Of a DNA stretch of 58,461 nucleotides, positions 29,629 to 47,970 are shown one piece after another; the stretch's first letter is position 1; every line of letters begins with the position of its first letter. The translations under genes and the position numbers were made by a program. The notes under the pieces were generated by a model. That model saw only the letters and a program-made list of their open reading frames with translations. It searched no databases and had not been told where the DNA came from. The stretch spans positions 1 to 58,461 of the forward strand of contig JAAYKE010000056.1 of the NCBI GenBank assembly GCA_012522575.1, given 5' to 3'. This stretch comes from Armatimonadota bacterium. Lineage in GTDB: Bacteria; Armatimonadota; UBA5829.

Positions 29629-32600
29629 ATGAAGGATACGATTGCGCGCACCCTTCGTACTATAACTGTTATTGTTGGGGTGATGATGCTGTGTGCTCCT
29701 GTGATGGCCCAGAATGCAATCTGGGGCAGGTACCACTACGACGTCCGCCATAGCGGTCAAAATCCCAATTCAACCGATATAAAGGGTCTGCTTAACGGCC
29801 CCAGTTCTCTGAATTTGATCTGGGTATTCCCGCGCCTTGACAGCGCCTACGACTACCCGGACGAGTCCGCTATGATAGTGGATGACTTCAGCGGAACCGG
29901 GTTCTCAAGAACGGGCAAATGGAGCATCGGGCATCATACCGATGCCTATAACGGCGATTTCCACATGACCAAAACAATCAACGTCGCCACCGGAACTGCT
30001 CCAACGGCGACCTGGTTCTGGCCGTCAAATCTGCCCGCAGGCAAATACCAGGTATATGTATGGGTTCCGCCGGCATCAGGTTTTCTGGCGACATCAAGGG
30101 CGAGTTATACGGTCTATGATGACGCGCACCCCGGCGGGGAGACCTATGTGCTGGACCAAAGCTCCGCAGGAGCCTGGAAGCTGCTCACCTCAGATTATTT
30201 CACTTTTGGAGCAAATGCCAACACCAGGGTAGAGTTGACCGCGCGCGTGCTGGATGAAATTCCTCGAGCAGACTATCCGGATCGCGTTGTAGTGGCGGAC
30301 GCGATCAAATTTACGCCTTCGCTGTTGGAGACGGGCATTCAAATCTACTCCTCTCCTGCCAGCGCAGAGATTCCGGTTGAATTGCCTCCGGAAGACCCGG
30401 ATAAAGGCTCTTTGTGGAACGGCAAAGGGCTTTGCACATATATCGGAACGGTCGAGCCGCGTTCGACAGCAGCCAGAAGCGACGATTCTGAACAAACCGA
30501 CGACTACGGAGCCATCTACTGCGTATATGGGATAACACCCACCCTTCAAAACCCTGCGCTCGCCGATGGAAGCCCGGACCCCAATATACCGGACAGCGAA
30601 AAGCTGGTGGCCATATCCAAGTATCTGGGCAAGCCCAAATGGCGATATCCAAACGCTGATCCGACCAAACGCCTGCCCATAGAAGGCCCTATCTCCGGCG
30701 GGATATATTCTTCCCCGACTCTGGTGAAAGCGAAGATCGGCAACGATATTAAGCTCGTCTGCTTTGTTGCTGCGATGGATCATCAAATATATGCCCTTGA
30801 TGCAACCACCGGTAAATTGCTATGGAAAGGCCCCGGCATTACTATCCCCGAAGAGGATGCCGTTGGCTTCAGAAATTATACATTATCCGATCTGCCCAAC
30901 CCTGACTCATTCGGCGGCACATTCAGCTATGCCGAATGCAGCGCCGATGGCGGAAACACCATCACCTGGACTTTTCAGACTACAGACCAAATAAGCGCAG
31001 CCCCCGACGGAGCCGAAGGGTTGTCATATTCGATATATGCCTGGATGCCGGGAGCAGGCGGAACCGGCGGCCGAGCGCGCTCGAATATGGCCACTTATAC
31101 GATTACGTATCAGGACGAATCCGGCAGCCCGAACGAGACCTCCACCGTCACGGTTAATCAGGGAGATCCAAAAGCATACGGCTCCTGGGTTAAGCTGGGC
31201 GGCAGCTTCTTCAACCCAAGCCAGGTCGTTCTCAACAATACGGCAGCCAATGAGCCGCCCGGTTCGGCTGGCGGCCCCGGCAGAGTCGCCAGTGATTTTG
31301 TCGTAGTCGCCGATGCGATAATGATCGTGCCGGATGCCATAGAAGGATTGGGCTACAGCTCGCCGGTCACCGATGCGGAACCTATGATCGGTTCGGAAGT
31401 GTTCGCCAGTCACGTGTTTACCACGAGCGTCAATGGCAGGGCTATGTCCTTTTCGGTTGAATCCAGAGGCTCCAAATATGTTGGTCACCTCGATTGGGTA
31501 TATCCCAGGATCAGGCAGGTGCGATCCCCCAAGCAATCAGAACTCGAACAGCCGTCGTGGGGTGATATCGGCGCATCCCCTGCTTACAGCGCGGACAAGC
31601 TCTACGTTGCGACTACGGATGGCACTGTGCGATGTCTGCAGAATGTAAAAACGCCAAGCCCCAGCCAGAAGTGGGTTTTCCCGGACGACGTAAATAATGA
31701 TGAAAAAACGGCAGCATTCACCTCATCGCCTACGCTCGACCCGCCGGGCAGACTATATATAGGATCTACGGACGGCATATTCTATTGCCTGAGCATGGAT
31801 ACCGGCGCAGTCGATAAAGGCAACGGCACAATGGGGCCGATATGGCAGTATCCGCAGGCGAGTAGCTCCGGATCGCCGGACTCGCCTCCAACCATAAAGC
31901 CGCCACTGGGAGCGTTCAGATACTCGACCCCGGCTTTGGCGACAGTGCATGGAATCAAGAGGGTATGGTGCGCCAGCACGGACGGACACGTCTACTCATT
32001 TTTGGCCGATACCGGCGAAAGGCTGTATCTGGATGATGAGGGACGCCCGGTCAACCAAACCGGCGACTGGTATGCCGAGCCTTCTCTGATGTCGCCGGTG
32101 CAGGGTTCGGTGGCGCTCGATGGCCAGTCACCGCAGGGAAACAGTGTGATGTATGTCGGCGATATGTCCGGCACATTGCATTGGAGGGACGCGGAAAACG
32201 GCACCACCAACAACTGGGAATATTCGGGTTGGACATGCCCGGATATGTTGTTCTCGTCCCCCAACATTACCAATATAGAGGTGGCCACTACGCCTGTGAG
32301 CTGGGTTTTTGTAGGGTGCGCGGACGGCCACCTGTTTGCATTTACCCGCAGAGGCGGCGGATGGGGAGGCGTATGGCAGGGCGGAGAATGGCCGTTCCCC
32401 GGAGAGCCAAACGACAACTCCAGCAAAACCCAGGCTGCGCCGGAAACCGAAATTCAGTTCGATATATTTGACCAGGACTTCTATAACGCTACAAGCTCTT
32501 TCGAGACTTCAAAACTCGACCCGCTAAAAACAGTCGACTCAACAACGTCAACGGACAGCGACTTTATCGCCAACCACTGGCCCAACAATATCATCGTCAG

Positions 32601-35600
32601 CAAGGATATGAAGGTGCTTCCGGCATCCATAGGCACGCTGGCTCCTGAGGACCCGGAAAAAGACAGGCAGATAAAAAGTGAGCTTATCGAGCGGGCAAAG
32701 CAGCGCAGGCAGGAGGGAGTCTTCCCTGTAGGGCGCGTGCCGAAGGCCGGCGTCGACCAGATATACTTCGAGTGGGGCGAGAAGATATGCCTTATTCTAT
32801 GGAATCTGCCGGAGGCTAAGTTCATCTCAGGAAGCGGCGCAAATGCGTTCACCTTTACCATGACAAACGCCAGCGCCGGCGCGAGCGCGGGTTCCACGCT
32901 GAAGGCGACTGTGGGCGATGTACGTTCTTATACAGTCGTATATGACGCCGGCACGGCAGGCGCTCCGGTCTATTCTCCTGTGGTGGACAGCGAAGGAAAT
33001 GTGAGGCGCAGCTTCGTGCTTGCCACTATCTCCCTCGATGGATCAGGCGGAACTGTGCAGCCCAGTCCGGGGCCGGGTTGGGTGCTGAGCGTGCAAATCA
33101 AGATTAAGGCAAACGATTCATCCAACGCCCCGGTGACAACGGTCACAATTCCCTTGGCTAAGCTGGTGAAGAAGGACAAATACTATGAGCCTTTGATCAT
33201 CGATGCCCTGCAAGCCCCGGTAGATGGAGTAGTCCCGAAACAGGTCAGGGAAGCTAACATAGGCATCAACAATCCTCTGGCCATTCGAGACGAGAAGGGG
33301 GCTGCGCTTGGTTGGGGCAATGGAATCAACCCGAACAGGTTCGATCCTGATGTCCATACCAACGGCAACACCAGATGGACCAACACGAGCGGAGGCAACT
33401 ACAACCTGATACCGGTCAACCCGCCGCCGATTATGGATATGTTGTATGTGCAAAACGGCACAAGCTCCAGAGAGGCGAAGCTGGGAGTCCTGGATCGCAG
33501 CGCGATGGGGTTGGCAGGTCGAAAGATAAACAGGTTCCGCATTGATTCCTCCGACTTGACGTTTAGAGGATGGCCGCACTCAGTCGAAAGTCAGCCTTTG
33601 AACGTATCAACCAATCCGCCGACGTTGATTCCTAATGTGGAGTATGGCCTAAGATTCCCGTGGGACGGCGGTTTAGGATCAGTTGACTACCCGCATATAT
33701 ACAGAAGATATCAGGCTTACGAACAGCTTTCGTCAGGCCAGGACCCGACTAATACTGCCTGCGAACTCAAGGAGATCGATAAATTGTCCGGCAGTTCGAG
33801 ATATGAGGACGCCCTCCTGAACCCGGATACGATGCTGGTTTCGGTGGATGTGCCCAGATTCCAGCCCGCCAATACCTGGGTGGACGTGAACCGCAATGAT
33901 GGTTTGGATGGCTACTCAAGGACGATGACCGCTTATGTCGACTCCAACCGCAATGACAGGTTCGATAGTGGCAACTATGTTCGAGGAAGACCGACCGCCC
34001 ATCAGGATACATACAGGAGATTCAGGGTCGGGCTAAAAGTGCCCCCTGATCCTAAAATTGAGGTCGAGGAGCAGCTTGTCGATATAGGAAGCGCGCCGCA
34101 TGGGTTGGGCTGGCCGATGGAATCGAGGCTTGGCTTCTCTCCATACAACGCCAGTCCGCATATCAGGCAGTGGTTTAAGCCCCTGACTATAAAAAACGCG
34201 GGCAATGTCAATCTATACAACATACGCATCAATCCGGCTGTCGGGCTTGTCAGCGACCAGGCTCACCCCGGAGCCGTGTTGTCCGGGGAGGCAATAACAA
34301 GCTCCCTTGATCCGTTGCCGATACCGTCATTCGGGCTGTTTGGCGCTGACCCGTTCATAACTGCTCAGGGCAGCAGGGCAAACGGCCAGAACGTATATCT
34401 TGGTTATACGCTTTCCAAACCCAGGGTAGGCGACCCTGATCCGACTGTTATGACCGTCCCGGACAGGCGAAAATGGGATGTGGAATACGATACCCGAATG
34501 AACGCCGCTACAAAGATCGCGATGGCCGGGTGGGCTGCCATACCGGAAAAAGCCGAGCCATTGCCGGTGCAGGTCGGGCTAAGGGTTCCGCTTACCCAGC
34601 CTATTGGAACCTATCAGAGCATTGATCCGAATCTCAATGCGCCGTATATTGCAGTTTTCGCTGACCTTGACGGCGCCGGCTACCTGCCGCCGGGTAACCC
34701 GGCTCACAATCCGGTTGCCTGGCCGAGTTTCCAGTTGAAAGCTACCGTAAGAGAAAATCAGTTGACCGGCGGAGTGACTCCCACTACGCTGCCGCAAATA
34801 GACTATATGCTGGGTAACGATGGCGTCATCTACCCGGAAATGCTGCCCAGGGTAGGCGACGCTACCCCTGCCGCGTTCAGGGATGCCGACAAGCTCGATG
34901 TTCACCTGGTGTGGTCGAGCAACCGGTTCAGCGATCCCGATTTGTATCCTTCCGACGAAGCTGAACAGGCCAGTATGACGGGAGCGCCGTGGTTCCTGCG
35001 ACGCGCCGTGCTTGGTTATCAAACAAGCCCTGCAAGCAATGGGGTGTGGGCGACGGCGAGTGATCAATCTCGCTGGTGGATAACGCGCAACAACTTCCTG
35101 CCCTCAGATCAGTGGATGCCGTCGCAATCGGGAGCCAATGCTCCGCAACTCCTTCCCTGGGAGTTTGGCAGTTCTCCGAGCGGGCTGCATTCTGTGAGGC
35201 ATTTCAGCCCGAGAATCGGCGACAACGACGCCGTTGCGCTCAATGCGAATACTAACCGCACCTGGCTGGCCTGGGCAGGCAATGCTGATTTCAAGGACCC
35301 TGCTACGGATAAACTGAGCCAGCAGAGCGCGATTTTCTATACGGACTACACTCATGGCGGTTCCGATACGGCGCAAAAGATATGGGCAATCGAGCACGAT
35401 TTCTCTATGTCAAAGCGCAGCCCGTGTCCTGTTCCCTATGGAAGCGATATGTGGATGTTCTGGCAGGGAGGCTCATCGGGCAGTTCGTCGATCTACTACA
35501 GCTTGGCTCACGACCCCGGCGGCGTGTTTGACACCACAAAAACAAAGTGGAGTCCTGATACGAAGCTCAGAACGCCGGACTGTCTGTCCGCGGTAGGCGC

Positions 35601-37050
35601 ACCCAACGCGATTCCGCGTGATATTCGATTCAATAATAAACCGGGTCTTAACGCCAAACTGAACGGGTTTATGGACCCGAATGCAAAAAGGGTCTTCGAC
35701 GTAGTATATGCCGGCGCAAGCAAACTGACCGGCAACTCCGATATAATTATGTCTCGGTATCTGTCCGTGCCTCCCGTTGCGCCTGTGTTGCAGCCGGAGA
35801 ACGCGGAGTTGGACAACCTTAATAAACTCCAGCCGAGTCGCATCGCTCAGCCTCTGCCGAGGGTGTTCGACGAACTTTTGGTCAGAGACCCCAAATTTGG
35901 GTTCTTCACATCCAGACACCTGGCGTGGTCCAGGGCCGGTAGCAACGGGCCGTTTGGGCTTGACCGGTGGGGCGCATACTCCGGCTCAGACCCCGCAGGT
36001 CCCGATGCGCCATACATCAGGGTGTTTTTCCCGGATGGTTATGACGACGGAGCTGGCAACACTCTCGCTGCGGATACTGCTATCAGCGCAACCGATGGGT
36101 CGGTGTGGGTGAACGGAAATGTGAGTCTCAGCGGAAAGATTATTAAACCGGAAGTTGACGACGCAACCGGGATATACACCTATTCTTATGACGAAGATTC
36201 TGTGGCTGACAAGATTCTTGGCAAGACGCTGGTCGATTATTCAGCGGGTATCATCCGATTTACCAACCCGTTGAAAGAGGTGCAGATCGCATCGGGTCCG
36301 AGGAAGGGAGCCTACAGCACCCCCGAGGTGCGCGCAGATTACACGCCGCGGGCGTGGAGAATCACCACCGACGCCGCTGCAGACGGCAGCCCGCATGCAT
36401 TCATCGAACATACTCAGATGGATCCCGGTGTAATACCGGGTCTGGATCCGGACTGGGCTTCCAATAAACCGGCTCCGGTGGATAGAATGTGGGTATTTTG
36501 GAGAAAGACAGGAACTGCAGTCGATAGCTCCACGGTCTTCTATACGACCATGCGAATTGGCGTCGACCTCAAACAACTTGGTCTGCCGCCCATTCCTATG
36601 AACGATAACGGTACAATAGATGGAGCCACAAAACTGGAAGTGACCGGCGCGCTTGGCCCGTGGGAGGTCGACCGAACCGGAACGAAGATATACTTCACGG
36701 AAATAGACGAGAGATACAGATCCCTTAACGCTCCGGAAAACAATAACGAAGTCTGGCTCGGACAGTCTCCCGGACCAATCTCGATTAGTTTTGACAGCAA
36801 CAAAGTCAAGGCTGAATTGCACGATGTTTCGTGTATAACTGAGCTTCCGGAGCAGTCTTTGTTCGGATTTGCGTCGGGCTTCAATGTCAATGAAGGTGGC
36901 ATTTATGCATTTGCCGACCCTCAACCCGATGAAAGCGGAACTTCTGTGGGGATTATGTCATCAAAGATTTGGGTGTTCTGGACAAGCACGCGGGGAGGTT
37001 CTTCGAACCTGTTCTGGGAGACCATCAGCCCCAACTTCTGGGCTAGATAA
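29629..37050 (+). CDS. Giant secreted protein (2473 aa) with PQQ/WD40-like beta-propeller repeats and golvesin-like domains
   Basis: Signal peptide ending VMAQ; 'KVSVVCFVAAMDHQIYALDATTGKLLWKG'-type propeller repeats ('DHQIYALDATTGKLLWKG', 'DGTVRCLQNVK', 'DGIFYCLSMDTGAV', 'DGHVYSFLADTGE'); golvesin-like segments at ~29870-30320 and ~30870-31330. Confidence 0.75.
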   Translation: MKDTIARTLRTITVIVGVMMLCAPVMAQNAIWGRYHYDVRHSGQNPNSTDIKGLLNGPSSLNLIWVFPRLDSAYDYPDESAMIVDDFSGTGFSRTGKWSIGHHTDAYNGDFHMTKTINVATGTAPTATWFWPSNLPAGKYQVYVWVPPASGFLATSRASYTVYDDAHPGGETYVLDQSSAGAWKLLTSDYFTFGANANTRVELTARVLDEIPRADYPDRVVVADAIKFTPSLLETGIQIYSSPASAEIPVELPPEDPDKGSLWNGKGLCTYIGTVEPRSTAARSDDSEQTDDYGAIYCVYGITPTLQNPALADGSPDPNIPDSEKLVAISKYLGKPKWRYPNADPTKRLPIEGPISGGIYSSPTLVKAKIGNDIKLVCFVAAMDHQIYALDATTGKLLWKGPGITIPEEDAVGFRNYTLSDLPNPDSFGGTFSYAECSADGGNTITWTFQTTDQISAAPDGAEGLSYSIYAWMPGAGGTGGRARSNMATYTITYQDESGSPNETSTVTVNQGDPKAYGSWVKLGGSFFNPSQVVLNNTAANEPPGSAGGPGRVASDFVVVADAIMIVPDAIEGLGYSSPVTDAEPMIGSEVFASHVFTTSVNGRAMSFSVESRGSKYVGHLDWVYPRIRQVRSPKQSELEQPSWGDIGASPAYSADKLYVATTDGTVRCLQNVKTPSPSQKWVFPDDVNNDEKTAAFTSSPTLDPPGRLYIGSTDGIFYCLSMDTGAVDKGNGTMGPIWQYPQASSSGSPDSPPTIKPPLGAFRYSTPALATVHGIKRVWCASTDGHVYSFLADTGERLYLDDEGRPVNQTGDWYAEPSLMSPVQGSVALDGQSPQGNSVMYVGDMSGTLHWRDAENGTTNNWEYSGWTCPDMLFSSPNITNIEVATTPVSWVFVGCADGHLFAFTRRGGGWGGVWQGGEWPFPGEPNDNSSKTQAAPETEIQFDIFDQDFYNATSSFETSKLDPLKTVDSTTSTDSDFIANHWPNNIIVSKDMKVLPASIGTLAPEDPEKDRQIKSELIERAKQRRQEGVFPVGRVPKAGVDQIYFEWGEKICLILWNLPEAKFISGSGANAFTFTMTNASAGASAGSTLKATVGDVRSYTVVYDAGTAGAPVYSPVVDSEGNVRRSFVLATISLDGSGGTVQPSPGPGWVLSVQIKIKANDSSNAPVTTVTIPLAKLVKKDKYYEPLIIDALQAPVDGVVPKQVREANIGINNPLAIRDEKGAALGWGNGINPNRFDPDVHTNGNTRWTNTSGGNYNLIPVNPPPIMDMLYVQNGTSSREAKLGVLDRSAMGLAGRKINRFRIDSSDLTFRGWPHSVESQPLNVSTNPPTLIPNVEYGLRFPWDGGLGSVDYPHIYRRYQAYEQLSSGQDPTNTACELKEIDKLSGSSRYEDALLNPDTMLVSVDVPRFQPANTWVDVNRNDGLDGYSRTMTAYVDSNRNDRFDSGNYVRGRPTAHQDTYRRFRVGLKVPPDPKIEVEEQLVDIGSAPHGLGWPMESRLGFSPYNASPHIRQWFKPLTIKNAGNVNLYNIRINPAVGLVSDQAHPGAVLSGEAITSSLDPLPIPSFGLFGADPFITAQGSRANGQNVYLGYTLSKPRVGDPDPTVMTVPDRRKWDVEYDTRMNAATKIAMAGWAAIPEKAEPLPVQVGLRVPLTQPIGTYQSIDPNLNAPYIAVFADLDGAGYLPPGNPAHNPVAWPSFQLKATVRENQLTGGVTPTTLPQIDYMLGNDGVIYPEMLPRVGDATPAAFRDADKLDVHLVWSSNRFSDPDLYPSDEAEQASMTGAPWFLRRAVLGYQTSPASNGVWATASDQSRWWITRNNFLPSDQWMPSQSGANAPQLLPWEFGSSPSGLHSVRHFSPRIGDNDAVALNANTNRTWLAWAGNADFKDPATDKLSQQSAIFYTDYTHGGSDTAQKIWAIEHDFSMSKRSPCPVPYGSDMWMFWQGGSSGSSSIYYSLAHDPGGVFDTTKTKWSPDTKLRTPDCLSAVGAPNAIPRDIRFNNKPGLNAKLNGFMDPNAKRVFDVVYAGASKLTGNSDIIMSRYLSVPPVAPVLQPENAELDNLNKLQPSRIAQPLPRVFDELLVRDPKFGFFTSRHLAWSRAGSNGPFGLDRWGAYSGSDPAGPDAPYIRVFFPDGYDDGAGNTLAADTAISATDGSVWVNGNVSLSGKIIKPEVDDATGIYTYSYDEDSVADKILGKTLVDYSAGIIRFTNPLKEVQIASGPRKGAYSTPEVRADYTPRAWRITTDAAADGSPHAFIEHTQMDPGVIPGLDPDWASNKPAPVDRMWVFWRKTGTAVDSSTVFYTTMRIGVDLKQLGLPPIPMNDNGTIDGATKLEVTGALGPWEVDRTGTKIYFTEIDERYRSLNAPENNNEVWLGQSPGPISISFDSNKVKAELHDVSCITELPEQSLFGFASGFNVNEGGIYAFADPQPDESGTSVGIMSSKIWVFWTSTRGGSSNLFWETISPNFWAR

Positions 37051-37269: not shown

Positions 37270-38829
37270 TTGAGGTCGTCACGCAAATCCGTGCCTTCAG
37301 CTATAGTCGGCTTGGACATCGGCACAGATTCAATTAAGGTCGCTGAAGCCAAGTTCGCCAGGGATGGCATAACGATAACGGGATTGGGCATCGCGCGGAC
37401 GCCTGAAGGGGCTTTCGATAACGAGGTCATCGCCGATGCGAAGGCTCTTGGAGGCGCAATAAAGGCGCTTCTGGGCGAATGTGGCATCAAGACAAAGAAA
37501 TGCGTAAGTTCCGTCTCAGGAGCTTCGCAGGTCGTGGTGCGCGTCATCAGCGTTCCCAAGATGAGTCAGCAGGAACTGGCTGAGACCATGAAATGGGAGG
37601 TAGAGCGGCACGTGCCATTCTCCCCCAGCGAAATCGTCATGGATTTCCACCCGCTGGATCTGCCCGGCGCAGACCCCGCCGCCTCCGAAATGGACGTGCT
37701 CCTTGCAGTGGCGCAGGAACAGCTCATTCAAAATCATGTAGAAGCCCTTTCCGCCGCCGGCCTCAAGCCTGTGGCCATCGATATCGAGCTTCTGGCTGCC
37801 AGTCGCGCGCTTGTGGATATGTCAGCTAATGGCGCACAAAACGAGACCGTGGCAGTGGTCAACATAGGTGCGACACGCACTGACCTCGGAGTATTCGAAA
37901 ACGGTTTATTGACATTTCCCAGCCCTCCCATCGGAGTCGCTGGAATCAATTTTACAAGGGAAATATCCGAAGCCCTGGGACAGACGCTCGAAGAGGCCGA
38001 GATCACCAAAAGGGAGTTCGCGTCGGTTAAGCTGGATGGTTTCCAGCCTGCCCCTGAGCCTGAACCGGAACCTGCCCCGCCGGCAGTTGAGTCCAGCATA
38101 TTCGATACTGCATTCAGCTCCTCCCCGGACGCTACGAGCGCTTTCAATCTAGGGGATGTTGCGCCGGAGCCCTCCGATGAACTTGCGGCTGAGCCGGCAT
38201 CTCTTGAAGACTTTGCAGATACTACCGAAGGGCCGGTATTTGATCTCTCCGGCGATATGGGGCCTACCTTCGATCTGGGCGCAGATGAGCCTGCAGCCGC
38301 CAGCGATTCCATTGATCTGGGAGGGCCTGTTGAGGATACCCCTCCTGTTGCGCCTACTTTTGACCTTGATGATGAGCCTGAACCTGAGCCGGAAACGCCG
38401 GCTGAGCCGAACTTTGACCTCAGTGACGCGGGCGCAGAAACCGATCACGGCGAACAGGCGGAACCGAGCACGGCTCCCGTGCCTGTGGCTCCTGTGGCAG
38501 GATTCGAGGACGGCTCGACGGAGGCCGCAGTATTTCAGGCTATATCAGGGGTGCTGCTGGATTTGGCCAACGAGCTTAGAATGTCACTGGATTACTATAA
38601 CAACAGATATTCGAAGATGCCCGACAGGGTGTACCTGTGCGGCGGCACTGCCAGAATGCCAAATCTGGATAAGTTCCTGAGCCAGGAGCTTGGCGTGCCG
38701 GTTGTGGTGGCCGACCCTGTCAAAAATGTGACGGTCAAAACGCCGGGGGCTTCACCGCAGTATCTGGAAGAGATTTCGCCGATGCTCTCCGTGTCTATAG
38801 GGCTGGCGATTAGAGATATGATTGGTTAG
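37270..38829 (+). CDS. pilM: Type IV pilus assembly ATPase-like protein PilM with internal acidic insertion
   Basis: 'AIVGLDIGTDSIKVAEAKF', 'MKWEVERHVPFSPSEIVMDF', 'VAVVNIGATRTDLGVF', 'YLCGGTARMPNLDKFLSQELGVPV'; TTG start. Confidence 0.93.
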   Translation: MRSSRKSVPSAIVGLDIGTDSIKVAEAKFARDGITITGLGIARTPEGAFDNEVIADAKALGGAIKALLGECGIKTKKCVSSVSGASQVVVRVISVPKMSQQELAETMKWEVERHVPFSPSEIVMDFHPLDLPGADPAASEMDVLLAVAQEQLIQNHVEALSAAGLKPVAIDIELLAASRALVDMSANGAQNETVAVVNIGATRTDLGVFENGLLTFPSPPIGVAGINFTREISEALGQTLEEAEITKREFASVKLDGFQPAPEPEPEPAPPAVESSIFDTAFSSSPDATSAFNLGDVAPEPSDELAAEPASLEDFADTTEGPVFDLSGDMGPTFDLGADEPAAASDSIDLGGPVEDTPPVAPTFDLDDEPEPEPETPAEPNFDLSDAGAETDHGEQAEPSTAPVPVAPVAGFEDGSTEAAVFQAISGVLLDLANELRMSLDYYNNRYSKMPDRVYLCGGTARMPNLDKFLSQELGVPVVVADPVKNVTVKTPGASPQYLEEISPMLSVSIGLAIRDMIG

Positions 38830-38835
38830 ACGATT

Positions 38836-39597
38836 ATGATCAAAATCAACCTGCTGCCCCGCAAGATAAACGAAAAGGCCGCCGTCAGGAACACAGCGAT
38901 CCTGTTCGGCGGGCTGGTTGTATTGGTGGCGCTGGTCGGTATTATCTATACGCAGTTTTTCCTGATCCCGCAGGTTCGCGCCGAAGAGGACCTCGCCACA
39001 CGTACAGAGGCTCTCGAAAAGGAAGTGCTGGCCATCGAAAAACAAACCAGCGATTGGAGAACCAGCAAGATACCGCCGATACAAAAGAAGCTGGATTTCA
39101 TCAACAACGTTATCGACTATAACCTTAAATACCCTCAGCTTTACGAAGATATCGCAAAGTGGACCTATGAAAAAATATCCTATGTGGCTATGGGATGCAA
39201 CGGGACCGAAGTTTCTATGGGAGCGCGCGCTAAAAATATCGAGGATATAGGTCGATTTCTGTTGAATATGTATAGGGCGCAGGACCTCTTTACCGAGGTG
39301 ACTATTTCGGGAGTGCCCGGCTATCCGATGGCTGCAGCGGGCGCTGACGGAGGGATTACACAGCAGTCAGATCCGTTCGGCGGCAGCGGCCCTGAGGCAA
39401 GTCTGGCCGGTATCGGAGCTATTACAACGGGCATCCAGAGCGCGCCGCCGTCAGGTTTTATCGGCTTTTCCGTCAGTGGCAAGCTCAAAACGCCGATCAC
39501 TGCCCCGACATTTGAGGGCCAGGCCGCCGCGGATCAGTCCGGACAACCCACACAGGGCGGGCCGGATATTGCGTCGCAGTTGTATGAGCAGCCGTAA
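38836..39597 (+). CDS. pilN: PilN-like pilus assembly protein
   Basis: 'MIKINLLPRKINEKA' + single TM; position after pilM. Confidence 0.85.
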   Translation: MIKINLLPRKINEKAAVRNTAILFGGLVVLVALVGIIYTQFFLIPQVRAEEDLATRTEALEKEVLAIEKQTSDWRTSKIPPIQKKLDFINNVIDYNLKYPQLYEDIAKWTYEKISYVAMGCNGTEVSMGARAKNIEDIGRFLLNMYRAQDLFTEVTISGVPGYPMAAAGADGGITQQSDPFGGSGPEASLAGIGAITTGIQSAPPSGFIGFSVSGKLKTPITAPTFEGQAAADQSGQPTQGGPDIASQLYEQP

Positions 39598-39657: not shown

Positions 39658-40335
39658 ATGAGTTTTTCTAAGCTCAAAAAAATACATGTTATAATCATTG
39701 GCAGCGTGCTTTGCGTGGCGGTCGGCGTCGCCATTTTCTTCCTGATGATCAAGCCTCAAATCGAGGCTTACAAGGTGGCAAAGGCGCGTTACGACAAGGC
39801 CGTGGTCAAAGGCAACGAGCAGTCAAAGCAGAAGGCCAAAAGCGATCTGGCGAAAGCTATGATGGATTTCAGCATCGCGCAGGCGAAGTTGGATGCTCAG
39901 ATGGCAAAACGTATGCCTTCTCTTGACTTTTCGCGGCGTGATATCGGTATGCTGGCGTTGTGGAACGAGCAGATAAAGACCCTTGGGCCGTTGCTGGAGG
40001 AGTTTGCAAAAGACAAAAATGTCAGAGTGCCAAACGTCAGGTTCCAGATTCAGCCCCCGCCGGCCAATCCCAACGATCCGGTATTCGATCAGGATGTGTT
40101 GATATTTCCGCTTGGATCGATATCGGTGCAGGGCAGCTTTAAGCCTATTATGGATAATATAAAACGCTGGAACAACTGCAGCCGTCTGGTGATGGTTGGC
40201 CCGCCGGCTTTAGGCGGAACCAGCCCGCAGCTTACGGCGGCATATTCGCTGACTTGTTATATTTTCCCGAGGGCTAAGGGTGGCAGTAAGATTCAAATGG
40301 CGGGCGAGCCATCTACGTCCGGTTCGAACCCTTAG
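39658..40335 (+). CDS. pilO: PilO-like pilus assembly protein
   Basis: Single N-terminal TM, coiled coil, 'LGSISVQGSFKPIMDNIKRWNNCSRLVMVG'; synteny. Confidence 0.75.
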   Translation: MSFSKLKKIHVIIIGSVLCVAVGVAIFFLMIKPQIEAYKVAKARYDKAVVKGNEQSKQKAKSDLAKAMMDFSIAQAKLDAQMAKRMPSLDFSRRDIGMLALWNEQIKTLGPLLEEFAKDKNVRVPNVRFQIQPPPANPNDPVFDQDVLIFPLGSISVQGSFKPIMDNIKRWNNCSRLVMVGPPALGGTSPQLTAAYSLTCYIFPRAKGGSKIQMAGEPSTSGSNP

Positions 40336-40354: not shown

Positions 40355-41140
40355 ATGGAATGGCTCAAAGATCCGAAAAACACGCCGATTGTTGCGACTA
40401 TAGCGGGCGTCGTTATATTGGGAGCGCTCTTCAGCTTATGGTGGTTTGTGCTGAGGACGCCGGCTCCGAGCGCTGAGGTTGCCGAGCAGACCGCGCAGAC
40501 GGAATCTATGCCGCCTGAATCTGAAATGCCTGCAGATGCGGGGATGGATCCTAATGCAGCGCCTGAGGAGCCTTCATCGCCGGAAGCCGCGCCGCAACCT
40601 GCCCCTGCGCAGCCCGCTGGCGTAACCGAGGTGGCGTCGGCGCAGCCTATGGAGGCATGGCGGGGAGATCCATTCTTGCCGATTGGATATAAGCCGCCTC
40701 CGAAATCAGCGGTGCAGCCAAAACCGAGAATTGCGGACTTTCCATTTATGAAGTTGCCGGTGAGCCTTCCCGCAGGGGGCGAAAAGGCAAAGAAGATAGA
40801 GAAACCGGAGATCGTGCAGCCATCCAGAAGAATGGCCGGCATACTGCTTGACGACAGGGTGTATGCTATCATCGAGACAAATGGCGTTTCGCAGGTGGTG
40901 CAGCCCGGTGATTATACGACCGATCGACTCGCGCTTGTCGAGCGAATTGAACCCGATAAAGTCGTATTAAAAACTGTCGATGAAAAACCGAGATATATAA
41001 CGGTCAAAATGGCGGCTTCGCCGATTTCACAATCGCAGGATGATATGTCCGCGCCGCCGATTCCGTCCCGACCGGGTATGCCCAGAGCGCCTGCTCCAGG
41101 TGGCGCGGGGGGCAGACCGGATATATGGCCGCCTTTGTAG
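40355..41140 (+). CDS. PilP/GspC-like pilus assembly protein
   Basis: N-terminal TM, Pro-rich linker, 'RMAGILLDDRVYAIIETNGVSQVVQPGD'; synteny. Confidence 0.65.
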   Translation: MEWLKDPKNTPIVATIAGVVILGALFSLWWFVLRTPAPSAEVAEQTAQTESMPPESEMPADAGMDPNAAPEEPSSPEAAPQPAPAQPAGVTEVASAQPMEAWRGDPFLPIGYKPPPKSAVQPKPRIADFPFMKLPVSLPAGGEKAKKIEKPEIVQPSRRMAGILLDDRVYAIIETNGVSQVVQPGDYTTDRLALVERIEPDKVVLKTVDEKPRYITVKMAASPISQSQDDMSAPPIPSRPGMPRAPAPGGAGGRPDIWPPL

Positions 41141-41266
41141 CGGCAGGTCCCTTTTGGAACTTTGCAGGTGACTGCGAAGTCATAAAAGTGTGGCCATGAG
41201 CGTGTACACGTGCAAAATCGCGTGTACAAACTAATATGCTGCGAGTGGTCGCAGGAGGCTTACCAA

Positions 41267-41983
41267 ATGTCTGTTAAATATATAGCCTTGATTATCGCCG
41301 TTGTTCTTGCGGGCAGCCTGGCGTGCTGTGTCGCGCTGGCAGCCGACGAAGATGATACTCCGGTCACGCTTGAGTTGAAAGACGCAGACGTGAGATCGGC
41401 GATTGAATCGCTGTTCAGGGGCAGGAACCGAAACTTCTCTGTGTCACAGGACGTTTCGGGCACCATTCCCAGCCTCTCTATCACCGGCGTATCCTTTGAT
41501 AACGCGCTCAAAAGCCTGTTGAAGTCTGCAGGGCTTGTCTATCGGGTCGAAAATGGCGTCTATATGATCAATAAAAAACCCGATGTGTCTGCTACTGCGG
41601 CTCTCGATGCGGCCGCCCTTACTGCAACCGAAGCAGCCTCGACGGTAGATGAAACTACCACTGTTGAGAGTATTATCGACAAAGTTCCGCTCAATCATAC
41701 CGGTGCGAGCCAGATTCTTGCTATAATGCAGGGAAGCAATTCCAGTTCCGGCAGCAACTACGGTGGCTACGGAGGCATGGGTGGCATGATGGGTGGTATG
41801 GGTATGATGGGCGGCAATTATGGTGGCGGCAGCTACGGTGGTGGTAGCTATGGCAGCTATGGTGGCGGTTATGGCAGCTACGGCGGCAGCAACCGCTACG
41901 GCAGTGGCAGCTATGGCAGCAGCAACCGCTACGGCAGTGGCAGCTATGGCAGTAGCTACGGCAGCAGTTACCGAGGCTGGTAG
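41267..41983 (+). CDS. Secreted stand-alone STN/secretin-N0-like domain protein with Gly/Tyr/Ser-rich tail
   Basis: ATG 41267 with gcaggaggc RBS; 'VTLELKDADVRSAIESLFRGRNRNFSVSQDVSGTIPSLSITGVSFDNALKSLLKSAGLVYRVENGVYMI'; tail GGSYGGGSYGSYGGGYGSYGG... Confidence 0.8.
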   Translation: MSVKYIALIIAVVLAGSLACCVALAADEDDTPVTLELKDADVRSAIESLFRGRNRNFSVSQDVSGTIPSLSITGVSFDNALKSLLKSAGLVYRVENGVYMINKKPDVSATAALDAAALTATEAASTVDETTTVESIIDKVPLNHTGASQILAIMQGSNSSSGSNYGGYGGMGGMMGGMGMMGGNYGGGSYGGGSYGSYGGGYGSYGGSNRYGSGSYGSSNRYGSGSYGSSYGSSYRGW

Positions 41984-42021
41984 TTATTTTTTGCAGGATG
42001 TGTGACCGGAGGAGGAAGTCT

Positions 42022-43704
42022 ATGTTACACACGCTGAGGCCGTGGACAAAATTAAACGCGGCGCTCTATGTTAGAAGAATCACGCTCCTAGTCGTGTTCG
42101 TTGCGCTGGTGTCGTGTTGTGCATTTGCGTCAAACGGAATTACGCTGCAGATTAAAGATCTGCCGCTTAAGGATGTCGTGATGCTTCTTACTCAGCAGAG
42201 TGGGACCAACGTAGTCATTGCCGATGAGTCGAAGCTCGAAAAGAAGATAACGGCCACATTGAACAATGTGCCGCTTCCCAAGGCTCTCGATTATATCGTG
42301 AAAGGCGCCGGGGTGTCCTACAAAAAAATGGATGACGGCACTTATATCATCGGCGGCGCTTTTGAAGAAGAGATCGCCCCTCTGCCGATTCCGGTAGAGT
42401 TGCCTCCGGTGGAATATGTTGCTGCCCCGGTACAAACAGCCAAAATCCGGACTTCCATCAAACTCGTCCACTCCAGACCCAGCGAATTGCTGCGTCTGAT
42501 GGGCTGGCAGGGTGTTAACCCTATGCCTAACTGCGAGCCGATATATCCGGACTTAAACAGGACAAGAGGAGCCAATGTGACTACGACCCCGGGGGGCACG
42601 ACGGTGATCAGCACGCCGTTCGGAGATACGATGCCGGTTGCCAATGGCACCAGTTCTCTGAACGTTCAGCCTGTCGCTCCCACTATCGACTACCGAGCGA
42701 CATCTTCTGATGCCGGAAGAGTTGCTGATCGCGGCTTAGAGGCCGGTCAGGTGCCGACTCCTCCGGGCTATACGAGACCCGCTGCCGCCGCTGCTACGCC
42801 GGCTACTCCAGCGACACGGCAGACTTCGACAAGCACGTCAAACCAGAACTTCCTTTGGCCGGATGGCATAGATAACGCCGTCCCGTTCGATTTGGATAAC
42901 TCCATCATTGTTAAGGGCGAAGAGCAGGCCATTCAGGACTTCAAGGACATCATCAGAATGCTGGATATCCCTCCAAAGCAGGTGTCCATCAAGGCGGAAT
43001 TCGTGGAAGTCTCCACCAACGATTTGAAGCACTTTGGCATTGACTGGAGCCTGGAAAAGCTCAATGATAGTTTCTCCGCGCCGATGAGCGGTGGAACGGG
43101 AAACGTTATTGCGACGTTCGCCACGGGCAACCTGTCTGCCACTTTGCGCACTCAGTTGACCAAGGACATCGGTCGTGTTATCAACTCGCCGATAATTTCC
43201 ACAATAAATAACCAGAACGCGTATATCTCCATCAACTCAGAAATTCCATATTGGACTACATACAATACTATTACAGGCACGGGCACGGTTATCGAGCAGT
43301 CTCAGCCCAACTTCATAACCATCGACACCCGCCTGGAGGTATTGCCCAGAGTCAATGGAGACGGCACTATTACGATGACATTAAGCCCGGGCGTTGCCGA
43401 CACCGGAAACATAGTCAGCGGGCCGGACGGAACTCAGATTCCTGAAACGAGAAACCAGGAACTGTTCACTCAGAGGCGCGTTGCTAATGGAGAGACTATC
43501 GTAGTCGGCGGATTTATCCGCAAAAACGACTCAAACAGCGTCAGCAAGGTCCCGATCCTTGGAGACCTGCCGATAGTCGGCAGCCTGTTCAGGAGCACCT
43601 CCCGGACAACTACCGACCGCGAGTTGTTGATATTCATAACACCGACTATTATTCCGGATTCCACCACCGGTTCAGTTGCGGTGGGGGGCAACCTGATTCC
43701 GTAG
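42022..43704 (+). CDS. pilQ: Type IV pilus secretin PilQ
   Basis: N0 domain 'LQIKDLPLKDVVMLLTQQSGTNVVI', secretin core 'PKQVSIKAEFVEVST', 'KVPILGDLPIVGSLFRSTSRTTTDRELLIFITPTII'; start after ggaggaggaagtct. Confidence 0.93.
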   Translation: MLHTLRPWTKLNAALYVRRITLLVVFVALVSCCAFASNGITLQIKDLPLKDVVMLLTQQSGTNVVIADESKLEKKITATLNNVPLPKALDYIVKGAGVSYKKMDDGTYIIGGAFEEEIAPLPIPVELPPVEYVAAPVQTAKIRTSIKLVHSRPSELLRLMGWQGVNPMPNCEPIYPDLNRTRGANVTTTPGGTTVISTPFGDTMPVANGTSSLNVQPVAPTIDYRATSSDAGRVADRGLEAGQVPTPPGYTRPAAAAATPATPATRQTSTSTSNQNFLWPDGIDNAVPFDLDNSIIVKGEEQAIQDFKDIIRMLDIPPKQVSIKAEFVEVSTNDLKHFGIDWSLEKLNDSFSAPMSGGTGNVIATFATGNLSATLRTQLTKDIGRVINSPIISTINNQNAYISINSEIPYWTTYNTITGTGTVIEQSQPNFITIDTRLEVLPRVNGDGTITMTLSPGVADTGNIVSGPDGTQIPETRNQELFTQRRVANGETIVVGGFIRKNDSNSVSKVPILGDLPIVGSLFRSTSRTTTDRELLIFITPTIIPDSTTGSVAVGGNLIP

Positions 43705-45187: not shown

Positions 45188-46276
45188 ATGTCTAAGGTAG
45201 CGGTTCTAAAGACTTCCCCGGCTACTGTCGTCGATGATTACGTCAAGCTTATGAAGCTAGCCGATTTTGAAACGGAGCTTCCCAGGGACAAGGACACGAT
45301 CCTCAAAATCAACATCTCCTGGCACTACTATTTCCCTGCGTGTTCCACGACTCCCTGGCAGCTTGATGGGGTGACAAAGGCTCTCAAGGAAGCTGGCTAC
45401 CAGAACCTGATACCTGCCCAGAACCGCACTGTGGTCGTCGACCCGAAGCTCGGTGCAAGAAATAATCACCTCGATACGGTTATCGATAAGCACGACCTGG
45501 AGTTTATGTATTTATATGAAGACGGCGTTAAGTGGATCAAGTATGAGCCGAAGGCCAAAATGCTGGTGCTGGACAAGGTCTTTCCGGACGGCATATTGAT
45601 CCCGGATGTGATGGTCGGCAAAAACGCGGTGCATCTGCCTACCCTTAAAACGCACGTATTTACGACGATGACCGGAGCTATGAAAAATGCCTTCGGAGGA
45701 CTGTTGAGGGAAAACCGCCACTGGACACATTCTGTGATCCATGAAACCCTCGTCGACCTGCTGGCGATTCAAAAGGAGATTCATCCGGGCCTTTTTGCCG
45801 TCACGGACGGGACTATTGCCGGAGACGGGCCTGGCCCTCGCGCTATGGTTCCGATGATAAAGAATTATATACTTGCCAGCGCGGATCAGGTTTCCATTGA
45901 CGCCATTGCTGCCAAAATGATGGGATTTGATCCGATGAACCTCAAATTTCTCAGGCTTGCGCACGAGCATGGGCTTGGGTGCGCCGATGTCAAGGAAATC
46001 GAGGTGGTCGGCGAAGACATATCCGAGGTGAACTTTCATTTCCACGATAAGCAGGAGACGTTTGCAAGTCGAGGCCAGAAACTGATCTACCACGGGCCTT
46101 TGAAACCGCTGGAAAATGTTCTGTTAAGAAGCTGCATCGCGCCCTGGTCATACTACGCATCGCGCTTGTATCACGACGGCTACTGGTATCCGTGCAAGGG
46201 CAAGCCTAGAGTCGATGCCATTCTAAGGACAGAATGGGGTAAGCTGTTTTCCAGCTATGGGAGGAGCAATTCTTGA
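45188..46276 (+). CDS. DUF362 domain-containing protein
   Basis: 'VLKINISWHYYFPACSTTPWQLDGVTKALKEAGYQNL', 'LPTLKTHVFTTMTGAMKNAFGGLL', 'GDGPGPRAM'; start 45182 or 45188. Confidence 0.8.
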   Translation: MSKVAVLKTSPATVVDDYVKLMKLADFETELPRDKDTILKINISWHYYFPACSTTPWQLDGVTKALKEAGYQNLIPAQNRTVVVDPKLGARNNHLDTVIDKHDLEFMYLYEDGVKWIKYEPKAKMLVLDKVFPDGILIPDVMVGKNAVHLPTLKTHVFTTMTGAMKNAFGGLLRENRHWTHSVIHETLVDLLAIQKEIHPGLFAVTDGTIAGDGPGPRAMVPMIKNYILASADQVSIDAIAAKMMGFDPMNLKFLRLAHEHGLGCADVKEIEVVGEDISEVNFHFHDKQETFASRGQKLIYHGPLKPLENVLLRSCIAPWSYYASRLYHDGYWYPCKGKPRVDAILRTEWGKLFSSYGRSNS

Positions 46277-47970
46277 TCGGGAAGATCATCAACTATCGTT
46301 ACGAGTTGCTGGAGAATGTTGGCGAAGGCGGGGTCTTTACCGTATATAAGGCTCGAGACAAGGTTCTAAACCGCCTGGTCGCGCTCAAAGCGGTAAAACC
46401 TGAGCTTGCAGATAATGTTCAGTTCACCACTGCTGTGCGCTCCGGCTACCAAAACGCCGCGCTTCTTGACCATCCCTGCATCGCAAGGGTGATAGAATCC
46501 GACCCTGCATCCGGCGAGGCATATCTGGTGAGCGATTTTGTCCGCGGGATGAACGTCAAGGACAGGATATTGCGCGCAGGTGCGATGCAGGTGTCCACCG
46601 CTCTCGATATCATCATTCTTGCGCTGGAGGCGTTGGATTATGCGCACTCAAACCGCATAGTCCACGGTGATTTGCGGCCGCAGGATATTATTGTCAGCCC
46701 GGATGGCGAGGTAAAAGTAACTGATTTCGGCCTGGCTCCGGCTCTGCGGCAGTGTCCGGAGGTCTCCGATCTGCTGGCGATGAGATCAATTCATTATGAA
46801 GCCCCTGAGGTTGCCGAAGGCGCCGCGCCATCGGTGGTTTCCGACCTATATTCAGTCGGTGTCATTTTGTATGAAATGCTCACAGGCTCACTTCCGTTCG
46901 AGGGATCTACCGCCGTCGCAGTCGCCCTTAACAGGACCAAACAGACACCCACGCCGCCTCGGACGCTCAATGCCGCGGTTCCCAAGTCGCTGAGCGATAT
47001 CGTGATGAGGGCTATTAATAAATCCCCGCAGGAACGCTATGCGAGCGCGAAAGAGATGATGCTGGACCTGCGAACGATCAGAGACGCTATCCGAACGGGC
47101 AAACCCATCAGCGTGTCGCAGCCACACACTTCCGGCGCTGCAAAGCCGATGGAGGTCGAAGTCGATGGCGAGCCGGAAGGGCCGCTTTCGAGGTCGTCAT
47201 ACCTGTGGCTGATCGTGGGGTTTGTCCTGGTGGTTGTGCTGGCGGGCGGGTTGACCCTTACGCTCAGCACAAGGGAAGTCAAACTGGATGTGCCGCTGAT
47301 TATCGGCAAATCACTCGAAGAGGCGCGCGAGCTGGCTCACGAAGCGGGCATGGCCATCGAACAGGACGTGCCCGGGGAAGTCTTCAGCAATGATTATGAT
47401 GAGGGAAGGGTTGCGGTTCAGTTCCCCATTGCCCATTCCAGAGTGGCCAGGGATAAGGCGATCATAAAATATAAGCTCAGCAAGGGACCCAGCGCAAAGC
47501 CGACGCCGGACCTGCTCGGCCTGCCGGAGGCGGACGCATATAGAGCAGCGGAGGATGCGGGCTTCCTTATAAACAAGTTGACTACCGAATATAACGACAA
47601 GATACCCATCAATTCGGTCATCAGGCAGGACCCGGAAAAGGGATCGATGGTTCCGCCGCAGAGTTCAATTTCTCTGGTGATCAGCTTAGGGCCGAAGCCC
47701 GAACAGCCCCAACCGCCGCCCACGGTTCAAGGCTCCGATGAACCCACCGGAGAACAGCGCAATTTTCAGGTCGCAGTGACCGTGCCTTCCGATTCAACCG
47801 GTTCGCAGGAGGTGCGGATATTGGTCAATGATGATCGCGGCGCGACCACTGTCCTGCAGGAGGATCACGAGCCTGGCGACAAACTGACCGAAACCGTGAC
47901 CGCCTATGGATCAAATGTGCGTATCAGGATATATGTCGGCGGTCGACTGGCCAGCGACGAGAGATACTAG
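46273..47970 (+). CDS. PknB/PrkC-type membrane Ser/Thr protein kinase with two PASTA domains
   Basis: 'ALKAVKPE', 'VHGDLRPQDIIV', 'TDFGLAPAL', TM 'LWLIVGFVLVVVLAGGLTL', two PASTA repeats; TTG start overlapping upstream stop. Confidence 0.92.
   Translation: MIGKIINYRYELLENVGEGGVFTVYKARDKVLNRLVALKAVKPELADNVQFTTAVRSGYQNAALLDHPCIARVIESDPASGEAYLVSDFVRGMNVKDRILRAGAMQVSTALDIIILALEALDYAHSNRIVHGDLRPQDIIVSPDGEVKVTDFGLAPALRQCPEVSDLLAMRSIHYEAPEVAEGAAPSVVSDLYSVGVILYEMLTGSLPFEGSTAVAVALNRTKQTPTPPRTLNAAVPKSLSDIVMRAINKSPQERYASAKEMMLDLRTIRDAIRTGKPISVSQPHTSGAAKPMEVEVDGEPEGPLSRSSYLWLIVGFVLVVVLAGGLTLTLSTREVKLDVPLIIGKSLEEARELAHEAGMAIEQDVPGEVFSNDYDEGRVAVQFPIAHSRVARDKAIIKYKLSKGPSAKPTPDLLGLPEADAYRAAEDAGFLINKLTTEYNDKIPINSVIRQDPEKGSMVPPQSSISLVISLGPKPEQPQPPPTVQGSDEPTGEQRNFQVAVTVPSDSTGSQEVRILVNDDRGATTVLQEDHEPGDKLTETVTAYGSNVRIRIYVGGRLASDERY

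Follow-up and report, generated by a model that had tools for sequence, protein, structure and literature searches.

A disordered, acidic insertion with repeated Phe-Asp-Leu motifs in PilM of Armatimonadota, a candidate docking arm

The window analysed, a stretch of 58,461 nucleotides, corresponds to contig C12 of a 3.06-Mb Armatimonadota MAG and contains a type IV pilus gene cluster in the order pilM-N-O-P-(STN)-Q-aroB. The first gene, pilM (37270..38829, + strand), has a TTG start and encodes a protein of 519 aa whose actin-like core (residues 1-255 and 416-519) is split by an insertion. Matches were obtained to Pfam family PilM_2 (PF11104; E = 2.6e-48, 165 bits against a cut-off of 27) and to TIGR01175 (197 bits against a cut-off of 133). 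The best Foldseek matches of the predicted structure were all to PilM, followed by FtsA, indicating a PilM/FtsA actin-like fold, and the model superposed on PilM of Thermus thermophilus (2ych) with a TM-score of 0.90 by target length. Downstream, pilN (38836..39597, +) was assigned from its position and the N-terminal peptide MIKINLLPR, whilst the pilO-like (39658..40335, +) and pilP-like (40355..41140, +) genes lack a Pfam match and were placed by position only. A gene for an STN-domain protein with a Gly/Tyr/Ser-rich tail (41210..41983, +) separates the pilP-like gene from the pilQ secretin gene (41998..43704, +), which matched both Pfam and a curated family model. An STN-domain protein is arranged likewise, with a GGYGGG tail, in one locus of family f32 (L145). 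Directly upstream of pilM (29629..37050, +) is a gene for a 2473-aa protein with Golvesin_C and beta-propeller matches. Homologues adjoin pilM in dozens of Armatimonadota loci, with identities of 67% in locus L034 and ~25% in distant families; this phylum-wide, operon-linked giant may be a tip or surface protein resembling PilY1.

The insertion in PilM (38035..38517, +; residues ~256-415) is ~160 aa long, acidic and Pro/Ala-rich, and is flanked by REFASVKL and STEAAVFQAISG. It occupies the loop between the AE-x-x-K helix (residues 240-250) and a long helix (residues 417-447), a site that presumably corresponds roughly to the subdomain 2B position of MreB/FtsA. A net charge of -41 results from 41 acidic and zero basic residues; Lys, Arg, Cys, Trp and Tyr are all absent. 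In an AlphaFold (AF2) model of PilM alone, most of the insertion had a pLDDT of 42-56 as compared to ~95 for the core, and a charge-hydropathy plot placed it on the disordered side of the line. The canonical TIGR01175 model has only ~7 positions at this point (the N part of the match ends at 243 and the C part starts at 251), and the alignment to the solved T. thermophilus PilM passes from residue 251 to residue 274; canonical loops are ~7-33 residues long as compared to ~160 in the window protein. No match to the insertion was found in NCBIfam. The first-pass annotation had described a long acidic insertion foreign to canonical PilM, which both the family model and the solved PilM sequences confirm, and the disorder that it assumed is borne out as a prediction (pLDDT of 39-56 across two AF2 runs, and charge-hydropathy).

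Six F/I-[D/N]-L repeats had also been noted, and all six were recovered, five as F[DN]L and one as IDL. Motif 1 is FNL (AFNLGD; 38143..38151, +; residues 292-294), motif 2 FDL (VFDLSGD; 38239..38247, +; residues 324-326), motif 3 FDL (TFDLGAD; 38269..38277, +; residues 334-336) and motif 4 IDL (SIDLGG; 38311..38319, +; residues 348-350), the last being FDL in a congener (L005). Motif 5 is FDL (TFDLDDE; 38359..38367, +; residues 364-366) and is invariant in all 14 aligned members of the class; motif 6 is again FDL (NFDLSDA; 38413..38421, +; residues 382-384). Composition alone predicts 0.086 matches to [FI][DN]L in this insertion, and none of 20,000 shuffles reached the observed six. As the DNA triplets of the six motifs (TTCAATCTA, TTTGATCTC, TTCGATCTG, ATTGATCTG, TTTGACCTT and TTTGACCTC) are all different, and the flanks differ too, the array did not arise by recent tandem duplication of DNA. 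The codons of motif 5 (PxFDL) vary synonymously among the 14 class members. Between the window and its congener, whose PilM is 77% identical overall, 16/18 motif residues are kept as compared to 71/133 of the other insert residues (Fisher P = 0.004). Differing codons combined with preferential conservation indicate that selection is acting on the motif peptide.

The array was examined against the remainder of the genome. A DNA pattern search of the whole 3.06 Mb found linked consecutive FDL pairs at pilM only (three linked pairs), whilst pairs elsewhere were isolated (16 versus a control number of 8). Among 466 sampled ORFs (576 kb), no second acidic disordered stretch with FDL repeats was detected. 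These searches rule out a genome-wide compositional habit as the source of the array.

A second conserved block, FADTTEGPVF (38212..38241, +; residues 315-324), has the pattern F-x-x-T-x-[DE]-G-P-x-F and was detected in 12 inserts: besides the window protein, ten close relatives carry it, as does one member of another family (L023). Its Thr could be the target of a Ser/Thr kinase whose phosphorylation of this block controls docking. The occurrence of the block in a second family would fit such a switch, as would a PASTA-domain Ser/Thr kinase encoded downstream of pilQ and aroB (46273..47967, +); but the Thr block was not found elsewhere in the phylum and the proximity of the kinase may be a coincidence, making this explanation very unlikely.

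The distribution of the insertion was surveyed across the little-studied phylum Armatimonadota, with nearly 90 PilM loops compared. A PilM match was present in 243 of the 251 genomes searched, and 81/88 distinct PilM rows in a tree of cores had an insertion of 29-391 aa. The seven exceptions were two paralogues from the window genome and five members of one nested subclade of family f32, whose PilM has the same operon setting but a loop of only 13 residues. The paralogues, on contigs C31 and C131, have 7-8 aa at the insertion point and lie each in its own PilM-to-secretin operon, so that within this genome the insertion is limited to PilM of the window operon. Early gain followed by one loss is the simplest reading of this pattern on the tree, whose deep branches are poorly resolved and whose root is uncertain. 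Every insert is net acidic, with Phe as nearly the sole aromatic residue. Over all inserts, FDL occurs 102 times versus 2.7 expected (37-fold), and a broader pattern, F[DNE][LIMVF], occurs 172 times versus 21.9 expected; of the 78 non-redundant inserts, 58 contain it and 20 lack it. The motif drifts in distant lineages to SPFDIP, MPFDFS (i.e. PFDF), DSVFELS (i.e. SVFEL) and NPFA; the NPFA group has no copy of the strict form, and [SN]PF is enriched across inserts (84 versus 8.2). The first-pass annotation would have been undermined by an insertion absent from close relatives and devoid of motif conservation; the insertion is instead widespread and its motifs are conserved.

Two explanations that dispense with a specific receptor were weighed against these data. 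The insertion could be a passive acidic spacer (an entropic bristle or solubility loop) making no specific contacts, as might be supposed from loop lengths that range from 13 to 391 aa, from a low-complexity composition in all lineages and from a subclade that does without it. The enrichment of the motifs, their preferential conservation and the synonymous divergence of their codons contradict this, and a purely passive role is unlikely. A less remote alternative, although still a doubtful one, is that Phe stickers in an acidic spacer self-associate and cluster PilM molecules or whole machines into a condensate. A Phe-rich, acidic, low-complexity chain whose motifs vary in number and drift in form would suit this behaviour; moreover, the Phe residues are more evenly spaced than in shuffled sequences (CV of 0.79 versus 0.95) and few are adjacent. 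Plain stickers, however, would not require the residue order seen around Phe (Asp and then Leu, with FDL enriched 37-fold), strong like charge would oppose self-association, and the loop lacks Arg/Lys or Tyr partners.

In PilM proteins generally, the N-terminal INLLP peptide of PilN is the conserved ligand. A pilN start with INLLP or IDLLP was found just downstream of pilM in most loci, phylum-wide. The three-residue likeness between this [I/L]-[N/D]-L-L-P peptide and the [F/I]-[D/N]-L copies raises the idea that the insertion mimics PilN, competes for the PilM groove and thereby autoinhibits assembly. In a second AF2 run, the PilM sequence was continued past its TAG stop to include the 21 N-terminal residues of PilN, in imitation of the solved PilM-PilN fusion 5eou. 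The block with MIKINLL had a mean pLDDT of 89 in this model; docking of the PilN peptide on PilM is thus modelled, as judged solely from the rise in pLDDT. The insertion remained at 39-55, similar to the values obtained when PilN was omitted. The two runs therefore give mimicry no support and, within the limits of such models, argue against docking of the insertion on its own PilM core. The flanking charge is also opposite to that of the PilN peptide and there is no resemblance to INLLP in the distant inserts (NPFA, SPFDIP), leaving mimicry as the most improbable of the alternatives.

With docking in cis disfavoured, the role left for the insertion is likely to be binding in trans. The best explanation, to which we assign a probability of about 0.5, is that PilM, the cytoplasmic stator protein, bears in this insertion a multivalent docking arm that is intrinsically disordered. 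The motif has been kept whilst the remaining insertion drifted, so that the insertion probably grips a cytoplasmic partner. The PilN INLLP peptide would hold the folded core beneath the inner membrane, and a floppy acidic chain bearing five or six weak peptides of the F-[D/N]-L-x-[D/E] type would emerge from that core. Each peptide would probably place its Phe and Leu in a small hydrophobic pocket on a single partner protein. Many peptides per PilM, multiplied by several PilM molecules per machine, could provide avidity with fast on/off exchange, and the partner would most likely be another cytoplasmic part of this machine, one that has to come to PilM and depart again. A docking arm for cytoplasmic partners had been proposed in the first-pass annotation; predicted disorder, selection on the motif and spread through the phylum now speak for it, whilst binding and the choice of partner stay at the level of inference. 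A more specific version holds that a dedicated cytoplasmic protein is recruited to the pilus base via a lineage-specific code, F-[D/N/E]-[L/F]-x-[D/E], present in 1 to ~10 copies on PilM as the bacterial equivalent of docking arrays built on Phe motifs; this is put forward tentatively, as a reading that could well be wrong.

The motor ATPases come first in line as partner. PilM has been described as the stator socket for PilB, at which ATPases including PilT compete (PMC11656802), and PilM of T. thermophilus pulls down PilF (PMC6325625). The window genome encodes three PilM proteins and four PilB-like ATPases in 3 Mb (contigs C31, C131, C78 and C181), with a pilB-pilT-pilC-pilD operon on C181 as the likely motor set. 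Across 41 genomes, the charge of the PilB N-domain correlated with motif number (Spearman 0.67), as did that of the rest of PilB (0.55); independent contrasts reduced the former relationship to r = 0.32 with a P of 0.04, uncorrected over several tests, and this weak co-variation did not hold up convincingly against either control. PilB is still full-length and of unchanged architecture in the loop-less f32 subclade, indicating that PilB as such does not depend on the insertion. Loss of a PilB domain alongside loss of the loop was ruled out, none being seen in that subclade. PilB/PilT is accordingly a possible partner but a rather uncertain one; the second candidate is a lineage-specific protein for localisation or regulation. 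Three loop-less f32 loci (L145, L146 and L149) have PilB N-domains with net charges of -11 to -16 versus ~-1 to -8 in most loop-rich lineages.

Comparison with known systems places the window PilM within an established family. PilM proteins of T. thermophilus (2ych), Myxococcus xanthus (3jc8) and Pseudomonas aeruginosa (5eox) resemble it in folded core, operon order and, as far as the model predicts, the N-terminal PilN peptide as ligand, but have a short loop after the AE-x-x-K helix in place of ~160 aa with FDL repeats. The long loop is a variant feature of PilM and not one that defines the family. Members of the Amuc_1101 family (NF045709, Verrucomicrobiota) are likewise longer than canonical PilM, but their extra length is C-terminal of the core with none at the insertion point (profile position 233 is followed by 252). 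The window PilM scored 111.7 bits against this family model, below the equivalog cut-off of 650, and an Amuc_1101-type extension was ruled out on the grounds of its different place. Plasmid-borne PilM, sought as an outside comparison, yielded only uninformative Acinetobacter fragments. Neither this PilM insertion nor a linear-motif code on PilM was described in the open-licence literature searched. The window PilM is a known protein with an apparently undescribed variation rather than a new kind of system. Eukaryotic endocytic NPF/DPF arrays (e.g. Eps15-Dab2; PMC12370899) similarly present many weak Phe peptides in a disordered chain, and the distant PilM inserts also contain NPF; this functional analogy serves as a lead only and implies no homology.

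The array bears on the question of how the pilus base recruits its motors and regulators, PilM being the socket. A selected motif array at a single locus, together with a clade that has naturally lost the loop and two paralogues lacking it within one cell, provides a clean experimental system in which the Phe-Asp-Leu motif is directly testable. The short loop of Thermus PilM (2ych) contains the sequence LLLDFDAERE, which is either a possible single-motif counterpart of the array or a chance resemblance.
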